Source: Gimesia fumaroli (GTDB lineage: Bacteria; Planctomycetota; Planctomycetia; Planctomycetales; Planctomycetaceae). Taken from it: a DNA stretch of 64,000 bases. The stretch covers positions 2,765,164-2,829,163 of the forward strand of contig NZ_CP037452.1 in the NCBI RefSeq assembly GCF_007754425.1, in the 5' to 3' direction. The translations under genes and the position numbers were made by a program. Below the pieces are notes generated by a model that was not told the DNA's origin, did not search any database, and saw only the letters and a program-made list of their open reading frames with translations. Below, piece by piece: positions 43,803-47,123 of this stretch (position 1 is its first letter; each line of letters begins with the position of its first letter).

Positions 43803-44924
43803 TTGTCTGACATTGAATCGCCCATTCCGATTGCGTTTTGTATAACCGGCTTGCAGCCTGGTGGGGCGGAACGTGCGCTGGTACAGATCGTGAAGCGGTT
43901 GAATCGCGAAAAATGGGCGCCCGTTGTCTACTCTCTGACAGGCACGGGGCCTCTTGCCGCTGATCTGCAGGCTGCGGGAGTTCCCACCGAAATCTTGCAC
44001 ACGCGTTCCGCCTGGGATGTGAGTATTATCTGGAAGTTGGCACGAAAGTTCAAAGAACAAAAACCGGTTTTACTGCAAACATTTTTATTTCATGCGAATT
44101 TTGCAGGGCGGATCGCCGCTCGTCGGTCAGGTGTGCCACATATCGTCTCTGGGATTCGTGTTTCCGAAAAACGAAAAAATGGACACTTGTTGCTGGACCG
44201 ATTGACAAATCGACTGGTGGATTTCAATATCTGCGTCAGTCAATCGGTGGCGGAGTTTTCGATTCGGGCGGGAAAACTTCCTGAGTCGAAAGTGACCGTG
44301 ATCCCCAATGGTGTCGACTTCGAACTGTTTGCGTCGGCTGAACCGCTGGATTTGAGTCTCTGGGGCATTCCCGCTGATGCCAAAGTGGTGTTGTTTGTGG
44401 GGCGGCTGGATCCACAGAAAGCCCCCGGTGATTTATTGACGGCGTTTGGCCGCTTTGCAGAACAGGCTCCTGACTTTCATTTGCTGTTTGTCGGCGAGGG
44501 GCCGTTGAAAACGGAATTGCAACAGAGTGCCAACCAGTTGTCCTGTGCAGAGCGTGTTCATTTTGCCGGTTGGCAGTCTCAGATTCCCCAATTGATGCGA
44601 GCCGCTGACTGTCTGGTGTTACCTTCGTTATGGGAAGGGATGCCGAACGTGGTTCTGGAAGCGATGGCTTCCGGTTTGCCTGTGATTTCGACGGAAGTGG
44701 ATGGGGTTTCCGAATTGATCCAGCAGGGAGAGCAGGGGACTTTGGTGGCCCAGAGAAGCCCCGCTGAGATTCAGCAAGCATTACAGGCTCTGGCTACCCA
44801 GCCCGCCTCGTTTCGCAAGATGGCGGGGAATGCGCAAGATACTGTGAAGAAAGAGTTTACATGGGACTCGATCGCACACAAATATGAACAGGTTTATGAG
44901 AAAATCCTGTCTTCACACGCCTGA
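43803..44924 (+). CDS. Family 4 glycosyltransferase
   Basis: This 373-residue retaining GT-B glycosyltransferase has the N-terminal glycine-rich loop [19 protein letters not shown] and the C-terminal donor-binding E-x7-E region [18 protein letters not shown] (about 279-296). It probably adds a sugar from a nucleotide or lipid carrier to a surface polysaccharide or lipid. The start appears to be TTG 43803, with AGAGG about ten bases upstream; no in-frame ATG lies close by. It stands alone, about 170 bases upstream of the mraZ operator region. The sugar and acceptor are unknown. Confidence 0.9.
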
Positions 44925-45126: not shown

Positions 45127-45582
45127 ATGGCACTAACGGGGACGTTCAACAAGATTCTGGATGGTAAACGGCGATTGGCGATTCCCAAACGGCTCAAGGA
45201 AGAGCTTGTGAACAAGGAGTTTACCCAGATTTACATTGCCCCAGGAACGGAATCCTCTTTATTGCTTTTTTCTGAGAAAGGATTTGAACAGCAGGCACAA
45301 CGATTGAAAGAGTATTCCAGGAACGGCCCGGAGGCAGCTCAGTATCTGCGTCTGTATTATTCGCGGGCAGAAAAAGTGGAAGTCGATTCTCAAGGACGGA
45401 TTTGTATTCCCGAACGTCTGGCCGAACTAGCCAGCCTGGAAGCAAAAGAAGAAGTGGTGTTGATTGGAGTTCAAGACCATGCGGAGATCTGGAGTAGCAC
45501 GCGTTGGAATTCCTATCTTAACAATCATGGCCCTCATTTTGATGAGATGGCTGCACAAGCCTTTGGCCAGATGCCCTGGTAA
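45127..45582 (+). CDS. mraZ: Transcriptional regulator MraZ
   Basis: MraZ is a ring-forming AbrB-like DNA-binding protein that heads the division and cell-wall cluster and represses it. The 151-residue protein has two SpoVT/AbrB repeats. The first is GTFNKILDGKRRLAIPKRLKE; the second is KVEVDSQGRICIPERLAELA, with the DxxGR and IPxxL marks. ATG 45127 is preferred over the upstream GTG 45097: it gives the standard M-A-L-T-G-T start and directly follows the ribosome binding site. The 620-base gap before rsmH is unusual, as mraZ and rsmH are normally adjacent. Confidence 0.95.
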   Translation: MALTGTFNKILDGKRRLAIPKRLKEELVNKEFTQIYIAPGTESSLLLFSEKGFEQQAQRLKEYSRNGPEAAQYLRLYYSRAEKVEVDSQGRICIPERLAELASLEAKEEVVLIGVQDHAEIWSSTRWNSYLNNHGPHFDEMAAQAFGQMPW

Positions 45583-45661: not shown

Positions 45662-45877
45662 TTGTTCAAGGAGGACATAAAGGAACTCTTCCGCTGGCTA
45701 CCGGGCTTCGCGGATTGAAGGTGAAATGGATGTCACCTGTGTGTGCTCAGGATATTAGGTTGGGCCACCGGTCGTTCGTCTCCTGATACAAGCAGAATGG
45801 AAGCTGCTTGAGACGGATGGCTTCAGGGTTCCCTCCTTGGACAGGAGTTGGGCCTGTTTAAGACAGGTTTTCTTTTT
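45662..45877 (+). ncRNA. Predicted structured RNA between mraZ and rsmH, ending in an intrinsic terminator
   Basis: Bases 45662-45674 pair with 45832-45844 in a 13-bp helix with two G-U pairs. A second helix, 45683-45689 with 45825-45831, continues inward after an 8-base bulge. Enclosed are three hairpins: TCCGC/GCGGA (45690-45714), AGGTGA/TCACCT (45719-45738), and CGTCT/AGACG with inner CAAGCAG/CTGCTTG (45777-45815). A terminator follows directly. No open frame crosses it. It does not match what I know of RNase P RNA, tmRNA, SRP RNA or riboswitches. The 6S RNA is similar in length (about 183 bases closed) but not in layout. It may be an independent small RNA or an rsmH leader. Confidence 0.55.
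45851..45877 (+). terminator. Intrinsic terminator at the end of the mraZ-rsmH intergenic RNA
   Basis: CCTGT pairs with ACAGG around a 5-base loop, extended by two G-U pairs, and is followed by TTTTCTTTTT. It would end the structured transcript and also block read-through from mraZ into rsmH unless antitermination occurs. Confidence 0.65.
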
Positions 45878-46202: not shown

Positions 46203-47123
46203 ATGTCAGGTATGTCCGGTGATCAGAAAAGGCCGATTCACTTACCGGTTTTATTACGAGAAGTGATTCAACAGCTGGATTTATCTCCGGGCCTGGTTGT
46301 CGTAGACGGCACCGTAGGCGCTGGAGGTCACAGCGAACATATCCTGCGGAAAATTGGTACAGAAGGAACTTTAATCGGTCTGGATCGTGATACGATGATG
46401 CTGGAGTTTGCCCGAGAAAAATTAGGAGTCGAGAGATTGCCAGAGGGGCAATGTCATCTCAGGCAGGCGAGTTACGCGGAACTTCCCACCGTTTTGGGTG
46501 AAATAGGATTAACGTCCATTGATCGCGTTTTGCTGGACCTGGGTTTGTCTTCTGATCAACTGGGAGACGACGAACGCGGTTTTGGTTTTGAATCATCGGG
46601 CGAACTAGATTTGCGGTTTGATACCAGCACGGGAATGCCCGCCTGGGAACTGTTGCAAACACGCTCGGAATCAGAGTTGTGTGAAATCTTCGAAGTATAT
46701 GGAGAGGAACGATTCAGCCAGCGGATTGCCAGTCAACTGGTTAAGCAGCGAAAAACGGCGCCCATCAAAACGGCGGCAGAGTTAATTAAAGTGGTTCAGC
46801 AGGCAATTCCAGCCAAGGCACTGGCGGCGGCACGGAAAAACCCGGCCACACGTGTATTTCAGGCACTGCGGATTGCAGCGAATCAGGAACTGGAACAACT
46901 GGAAACGATGTTGGGATCGGTTCTCCCTGAGGTTCTGAAACCGGGAGGCAGAGCTGCGATTATCAGCTTTCACTCTCTGGAAGATCGAATGGTCAAACAG
47001 GCTTTTAAAGATCGAACCATCTGGAAAAACTTAACTCCAAAGCCCATTGTGGCAACGCAGGCCGAGCAACGGGTGAATCCACGTTGCCGAACCGCGAAGC
47101 TGCGGGTGGCGATGAAAACATAA
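46203..47123 (+). CDS. rsmH: 16S rRNA (cytosine-1402 N4) methyltransferase RsmH (MraW)
   Basis: RsmH methylates N4 of C1402 in the 16S rRNA decoding centre using S-adenosylmethionine. The 306-residue protein has the motif DGTVGAGGHSEHIL (about 34-47), LLDLGLSSDQL, the insertion domain with ERFSQRIASQLV, and near the end AAIISFHSLEDRMVKQAF and VNPRCRTAKLRV. These are diagnostic. ATG 46203 is used; ATG 46212 is possible, and neither has a ribosome binding site. It normally follows mraZ directly, but here a structured region lies between. Confidence 0.96.
   Translation: MSGMSGDQKRPIHLPVLLREVIQQLDLSPGLVVVDGTVGAGGHSEHILRKIGTEGTLIGLDRDTMMLEFAREKLGVERLPEGQCHLRQASYAELPTVLGEIGLTSIDRVLLDLGLSSDQLGDDERGFGFESSGELDLRFDTSTGMPAWELLQTRSESELCEIFEVYGEERFSQRIASQLVKQRKTAPIKTAAELIKVVQQAIPAKALAAARKNPATRVFQALRIAANQELEQLETMLGSVLPEVLKPGGRAAIISFHSLEDRMVKQAFKDRTIWKNLTPKPIVATQAEQRVNPRCRTAKLRVAMKT

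Follow-up and report, generated by a model that had tools for sequence, protein, structure and literature searches.

What fills the 620 bases between mraZ, which stops at 45582, and the listed start of rsmH at 46203 in this planctomycete, and on what does it act? The gap lies within the window, the whole 64,000-nucleotide stretch of DNA analysed here, which belongs to a 7.7 Mb genome on a single contig (G000). A sequence-only reading had given the gap the same length and had placed in it, at 45662-45877, an uncharacterised structured RNA. Our analysis confirms the structured-RNA observation and partly supports the interpretation attached to it. The features on which the argument rests are the following.

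43803..44924, + strand: glycosyltransferase gene, upstream neighbour, also where mraZ is missing (PF13692, E = 6.6e-40)
45127..45582, + strand: mraZ, upstream neighbour (PF02381, E = 1.2e-23)
45662..45844, + strand: structured RNA as delimited in the genus, closing helix included (fold z = -3.98; about 90% DNA identity in 15/16 same-genus relatives)
45662..45674, + strand: P1 closing helix, 5' strand, pairs with 45832-45844
45682..45688, + strand: P2 second helix, 5' strand, pairs with 45826-45832
45690..45714, + strand: hairpin A, with the conserved loop ACCGGGC at 45700-45706
45719..45738, + strand: hairpin B, apical-loop ANGGA (AUGGA) at 45726-45730, candidate CsrA site 1
45739..45768, + strand: hairpin C, variable, loop not conserved between genera
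45770..45822, + strand: hairpin D, apical-loop ANGGA (AUGGA) at 45797-45801, candidate CsrA site 2, followed by a T-run in some relatives
45832..45844, + strand: P1 closing helix, 3' strand, pairs with 45662-45674
45850..45877, + strand: terminator-like hairpin with a T-rich tail in the window sequence (such a site in 4/16 genus members)
46203..47123, + strand: rsmH (mraW), downstream neighbour, not constant (PF01795, E = 3e-88)

The 13-bp long-range helix lies exactly where it had been described; it comprises 13 pairs, 2 of them G-U, and the second helix likewise stacks upon it, with base 45832 contested by both. Within these helices four hairpins were found, A to D, where three had been counted. 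The minimum free energy of the window RNA is -89.6 kcal/mol, compared with a mean of -70.9 (sd 4.7) for shuffled sequences (z = -3.98), and 0/200 shuffles reach it. As claimed, no protein frame crosses the RNA: no ORF of at least 40 aa spans it, and three ORFs of 41-54 aa overlap part of it. The view that none of the common RNA classes fits is also borne out, since an Rfam search of the 64-kb window yields 0 matches at gathering score; at E up to 5 only five window matches appear, all well under their cut-offs, and the loci of 7 relatives yield no match. The stretch from mraZ to the window RNA showed no sigma-70-like promoter.

Of 17 genomes of the genus, the window's own included, 16 have the RNA in the mraZ-rsmH gap, and a DNA search recovers it at about 90% identity in 15 of the 16 others, the exception (G006) being a 76% complete genome. 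Conserved and outside Rfam, the RNA is thus uncharacterised as had been stated. Compared with the window sequence, hairpins A-D average 0.93 identity and the closing helices 0.89-0.91. Among the 16 genus members 95.2% of P1 cells are paired, 6/13 P1 pairs are broken in one to three species, and no pair is changed on both sides. The compensatory changes in the closing helix that had been set as a check are therefore missing among these 16 species, and P1 as the conserved core is unsupported; the genus-only alignment (A2) is itself too similar for covariation, with double changes in 2/58 of its pairs. Hairpin B carries AUGGA in 16/16 genus members, and hairpin D carries AUGGA in 14/16 and AAGGA in 2/16. 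Where an intrinsic terminator was said to follow directly, the window has a terminator-like hairpin; this does not hold genus-wide, a terminator-like site being found within about 130 nt 3' of the RNA in 4/16 members.

To follow the RNA beyond the genus, a covariance model (R1) was built from hairpins A and B. With the cut-off at E <= 0.1, loose enough to admit chance matches, R1 finds 111/170 family genomes, and at E <= 1e-4 it finds 64/170 by row tally. In 59 of these 64 confident genomes mraZ stands upstream of the match on the same strand; the five exceptions are G029, G059, G119, G065, and G182. At 58 of these 59 mraZ-linked loci the distance from the mraZ stop to the start of hairpin A is 16-292 nt; the remaining one, L019, has the loop CCGGGT and escaped the pattern. 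The downstream side is less constant: at 23 of the 43 confident mraZ-linked loci outside the genus, rsmH was not found in the fetched flank, which covered 1.6-2.2 kb behind mraZ (0.3 kb in one locus). A class sample of 297 genomes yields four weak R1 hits outside the family at E <= 0.001, and a phylum sample of 294 genomes yields 8 matches at E <= 1e-4, all within the family; because stricter filters were applied to both samples, and because R1 misses many divergent family members, absence elsewhere is not established. Among the matches listed from a pattern scan of other genomes (80 of at least 119 stretches) most are due to chance. Fifteen scan matches were folded, and 5 from Planctomycetota were judged true (L024, L040, L050, L074, and L079); L029, L036, L094, and seven scan matches from other phyla were judged not true by their folds. 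The RNA of L074 is identical in sequence to that of G176, a family genome. Eleven weak R1 hits (L208, L211, L213, L214, L215, L217, L222, L227, L228, L232, and L233) were left out of the statistics as chance-like, with no mraZ, odd folds or no further examination, and L229 was left out as the other contig end of the genome that holds L230, a duplicate.

Loops were then surveyed in the 450 nt past the mraZ stop at 122 family mraZ loci from 46 genera, 72 of them chosen by R1 and 50 chosen by mraZ without a strong R1 hit; 10 further loci from other families complete a 132-locus set. L017, L183, L198, L199, L200, and L221 fall outside this set because the region is defined from mraZ and these loci lack it. 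No other 7-mer downstream of mraZ is as widely shared as ACCGGGC, which occurs in 41/46 genera and 108/122 loci. The stem of hairpin A forms around it in 82/85 distinct contexts where 31.8 are expected, and the stems themselves are very diverse (CCGC/GCGG, GCGC/GCGC, CACC/GGTG, TCCC/GGGA). Loop variants are GCCGGGC (L006, L009; genus), CCGGGT (L019), and ACTGGGC (g5). A pseudoknot of ACCGGGC within the RNA was considered and rejected, a 6-nt downstream complement being present in 13/108 loci compared with 15.4 expected.

A similar constancy is seen in the loops of hairpins B and D. Scored strictly, with at least 6 contiguous pairs, an ANGGA hairpin is present at 59/72 R1-chosen, 40/50 mraZ-chosen, and 3/10 other-family loci, compared with 5/72, 1/50, and 1/10 on the antisense strand and 38/720, 32/500, and 2/100 in shuffles. 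Per family locus (n = 122), 42 have at least two strict hairpins, 57 have one and 23 have none; under a relaxed test (5 of 6 register pairs), 9/122 family loci are left without any. When no motif is preset, ANGGA tops all gapped loop patterns, in 43/46 genera. Of 481 ANGGAs, 80 sit in an in-register hexaloop hairpin with 6 pairs, compared with 302 of 52,711 positions overall (0.6%), and the next best of 256 patterns forms 12 in-register hairpins, all in one genus. Elsewhere in the same loci ANGGA falls in register in 18/984 cases on the same strand and 3/593 on the other. The N position is free (T 41, C 29, A 19, G 18; n = 107), and the flanks that close the loop are C before in 65/107 and G after in 70/107.

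A pairing-blind test that used a single locus from each genus (the first to have one) gives the same picture. At site B, defined as the first ANGGA 15-45 nt past the ACCGGGC loop (34 genera), 155/238 cells are paired compared with a shuffle mean of 106 and maximum of 130, and at site D, the last ANGGA 60-150 nt past that loop (40 genera), 219/280 cells are paired compared with a mean of 139 and maximum of 167 (500 shuffles each). Hairpins B and D of the window present AUGGA in eight-base loops with one A-G mismatch under the hexaloop and therefore pass the relaxed test and fail the strictest. The first two ANGGA hairpins are spaced by a median of 72 nt (range 34-261, n = 49), and a T-rich octamer lies 3' of the last ANGGA hairpin in 25/113 loci compared with 5' in 5/113. 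Constant loops on changing stems are the conserved core of this RNA across the family. The stress laid by the sequence-only reading on the 13-bp helix was accordingly misplaced; the core consists of three fixed-loop hairpins (ACCGGGC, ANGGA, ANGGA) with freely changing stems.

Does the RNA depend upon the gene in front of it? The surroundings of the glycosyltransferase gene were examined in 20 genomes (INDEPENDENCE) that have either no MraZ-domain match or none stronger than E = 1.2e-8, where canonical MraZ copies mostly score 1e-10 to 1e-19. Of the 19 such genomes having a match to the glycosyltransferase, 10 keep the RNA beside it. These span six genera (G059, G029, G119, G065, G033, G027, together with G183, G020, G097, and G186, the last four with an ACTGGGC loop). 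G087 has a degenerate form of the RNA with an ANGGA hairpin. The RNA was not seen beside the glycosyltransferase in G085, G025, G099, G023, G092, G150, and G082, the last of these matched only by a weaker relative of the glycosyltransferase gene; in G130 the contig ends behind that gene, and some of the mraZ-less genomes are drafts. The RNA is independent of rsmH and mraZ. In the mraZ-less loci of g12 and g46 (L198, L199, L200) the RNA stays and both loops lack GGA (AAGAC, ACGA, and similar), so CsrA binding may have gone with hairpin A retained; it is as if mraZ and CsrA binding were lost together. Separately, a further protein with an MraZ domain (PF02381, E ~1e-6; about 160-190 aa) is encoded outside the division cluster (G000:C1:928297-928434), and it recurs at similar places in several relatives that also have canonical mraZ.

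The ANGGA pattern has a published counterpart. In the available part of PMC7652899, the CsrA SELEX site is given as RUACARGGAUGU, RsmE complexes contain an ANGGAN hexaloop, CsrB carries CAGGA(U/A/C)G repeats, and one CsrA dimer bridges two sites 10-63 nt apart. Read as sequence, loops B and D match this CsrA/RsmA target in the free N, the C-G closing pair, and the hexaloop register. The hosts are well supplied with the putative binder: csrA (PF02599) is found in 61/61 family genomes sampled, at 5-17 copies (13 in the window's own genome, one of them at G000:C1:919553), and in 79/79 class genomes sampled, at 2-17 copies, with 17 reached by a genus member. FliW (PF02623) was found in 0/61 family genomes by a search that detected the control in Bacillus and Thermotoga; FliW is the other known CsrA antagonist. 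Of the window genome's own CsrA copies one was read in detail and two more as translations. The first, of 52 aa (PF02599, E = 4.1e-27), has R44 by eye, a residue whose change alters RNA binding by CsrA according to the same portion of PMC7652899.

We consider it probable that the RNA is a free CsrA-binding small RNA, similar to CsrB and RsmZ, with two sites and one further conserved loop; discrete transcription, CsrA binding, and the titration outcome are all things that we infer. As proposed, a free small RNA of about 150-210 nt would be made from the region downstream of mraZ, either from the mraZ transcript or from its own promoter. CsrA-family proteins would bind hairpins B and D at their ANGGA loops; a single RNA could be occupied by one CsrA dimer that spans the two sites, or by two dimers. 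The RNA would thereby compete with mRNA targets for CsrA, as do CsrB, RsmZ, and RsmU, and would lower free CsrA. The near-invariant ACCGGGC loop suggests at least one other partner besides the ANGGA-loop binder, and this second partner, protein or RNA, may meet the RNA at hairpin A. In some relatives hairpin D might double as a terminator.

Several observations run against such a sponge. Two conserved ANGGA hairpins are far below the number in CsrB, so strong titration would need high abundance; since two sites amount to one or two dimers, the RNA would need either to be made in large amounts or to target a single one of the many paralogues. The 72-nt median spacing exceeds the 10-63 nt bridging range, a distance that folding may shorten. 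Strict ANGGA hairpins are missing from 23/122 loci, and the loss of GGA from both loops in g12 and g46 is unexplained by a pure CsrA sponge. In addition, the available text of PMC7694677 on RsmU reports that with all four GGAs changed, RsmA binding and the phenotype remained; GGA motifs alone are therefore no proof of function.

The close linkage to mraZ would fit a role in cis too, and the leading alternative is such a role exerted on the mraZ transcript. As a CsrA-responsive 3' element, the RNA would govern mraZ mRNA stability or read-through into the genes behind, which would agree with its same-strand position behind mraZ in 59/64 confident genomes, with hairpin A 16-292 nt past the stop in 58/59, and with the T-rich stretch after hairpin D in 25/113 loci. 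The argument is weakened by the 23/43 confident loci outside the genus where rsmH was not found behind the RNA, by the six genera that keep the RNA without canonical mraZ, and by the presence of two separate hairpins, which exceed the needs of a terminator; we judge this role unlikely. The sequence-only reading had left the choice between a free small RNA and a leader controlling rsmH and the division genes, and of these the free small RNA is favoured. A 5' leader acting in cis would suit the 16/16 genus loci at which the RNA precedes rsmH, but in the window about 360 nt and a terminator-like site separate the two, and the same 23/43 loci speak against it, which leaves this reading very improbable. 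As a general function, an rsmH leader was rejected, the position upstream of rsmH not being constant.

Could the ANGGA loops instead serve another protein? CsrA binding here is predicted, and the near-invariant ACCGGGC loop already suggests at least one further partner; yet each base of the pattern agrees with the CsrA site, in csrA-rich genomes, and a binder other than CsrA is in our view improbable. A diverged housekeeping RNA has next to no probability. 6S RNA is similar in size and also has a long closing helix, but the genome has a 6S match elsewhere (G000:C1:6105727-6105908; 39.6 bits, below the gathering score of 46.4), such a match is found in 19/21 genomes at E <= 0.001, and no Rfam match occurs in the window or at the loci of 7 relatives, the comparison with SRP, RNase P, and tmRNA having been made through Rfam only. 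With the genome's 6S match elsewhere and none at the site of the RNA, 6S RNA (RF00013) was rejected.

Loci from other families show related arrangements behind mraZ. In L274 and L275 (f9) and L282 (f12), the 450 nt behind mraZ also hold an ANGGA hairpin (GGCACATGGATGTGCC; GGGCGTCATGGATGACGCCC; GGGGCACACGGAAGTGCCC), followed in the case of GGGGCACACGGAAGTGCCC by a T-run, and hairpin A is replaced by a shared element containing CGGCCACC, which is also present in L283 (f7). In L280 (f3, G228), several hairpin-like repeats with AGGA or ANGGA tips stand in a row 0-250 nt behind mraZ and, judged from sequence and three local folds, are closer to a classical multi-site Csr RNA. Behind mraZ, L277, L278, and L281 (f3) have a CTCCCAGC element in common, together with a strong T-run terminator-like site; they lack ANGGA hairpins of the window-family kind and possibly represent another RNA.

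The sequence-only reading had overlooked the CsrA signature, along with the tie to mraZ and to the glycosyltransferase side of the locus. Because its hairpin tips carry that signature, the RNA may be the missing brake on CsrA in bacteria with many csrA genes, and it offers a concrete candidate for CsrA control where csrA is present in 5-17 copies and FliW was not found. Planctomycetes mostly divide without FtsZ, and the RNA would link CsrA control to the mraZ division locus in such bacteria. More tentatively, and with doubt outweighing confidence, we suggest that it is the first Csr-type riboregulator outside the proteobacteria, to our knowledge and among the literature matches listed, one that buffers the CsrA pool at the head of the division cluster with ACCGGGC recruiting another partner. 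If this is true, division and wall protein synthesis would be tied to global translation control via the ACCGGGC partner, and related mraZ-linked ANGGA RNAs with other 5' hairpins in further families would form a class-wide device. The conserved RNA, moreover, forms a family from which a new RNA model could readily be built. Among the literature matches listed for planctomycete CsrA, small RNA, mraZ, and structured RNA, this RNA is undescribed and no planctomycete Csr small RNA appears; the portions of PMC9029176 and PMC2864571 available to us hold no description of it.

How, then, does the RNA compare with known systems? The mraW RNA motif of Actinomycetales (RF01746; PMC2864571) takes its name from rsmH (mraW). 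As far as the accessible part of that paper describes it, the motif differs in belonging to another phylum, and the planctomycete RNA has no Rfam match and goes with mraZ and the glycosyltransferase, not with rsmH. The same excerpt lists a Rhodopirellula-1 motif (Proteobacteria, Planctomycetes), known here by its listing alone. With CsrB/CsrC and RsmX/Y/Z of the gammaproteobacteria the RNA shares a noncoding character and GGA (ANGGA) motifs in apical hairpin loops, and its host encodes CsrA. Unlike them, it resides in another phylum with 5-17 csrA copies, has no Rfam match (none to CsrB/RsmZ-type models at gathering score or at E <= 5), and in place of their many repeated sites has two conserved ANGGA hairpins and an ACCGGGC hairpin; it would therefore work like the CsrB/RsmZ type and is not classed as a member. 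McaS and GadY of E. coli, small RNAs proposed in the available part of PMC7652899 to antagonise CsrA besides a base-pairing role, offer a dual role that parallels the second conserved loop, the planctomycete RNA having no known base-pairing target.

RsmU of Xanthomonas, an RsmA-sequestering RNA processed from an mRNA 3' UTR, may be a close functional parallel, as judged from the accessible text of PMC7694677. Like the planctomycete RNA, it follows a coding gene on the same strand (mraZ at 59/64 confident loci here) and stands outside the classical families, and its three to four GGA motifs are a trait that the two share. RsmU is reported in that text to be limited to Xanthomonas, behind a ComEA-like gene, whereas the planctomycete RNA persists without its upstream gene.
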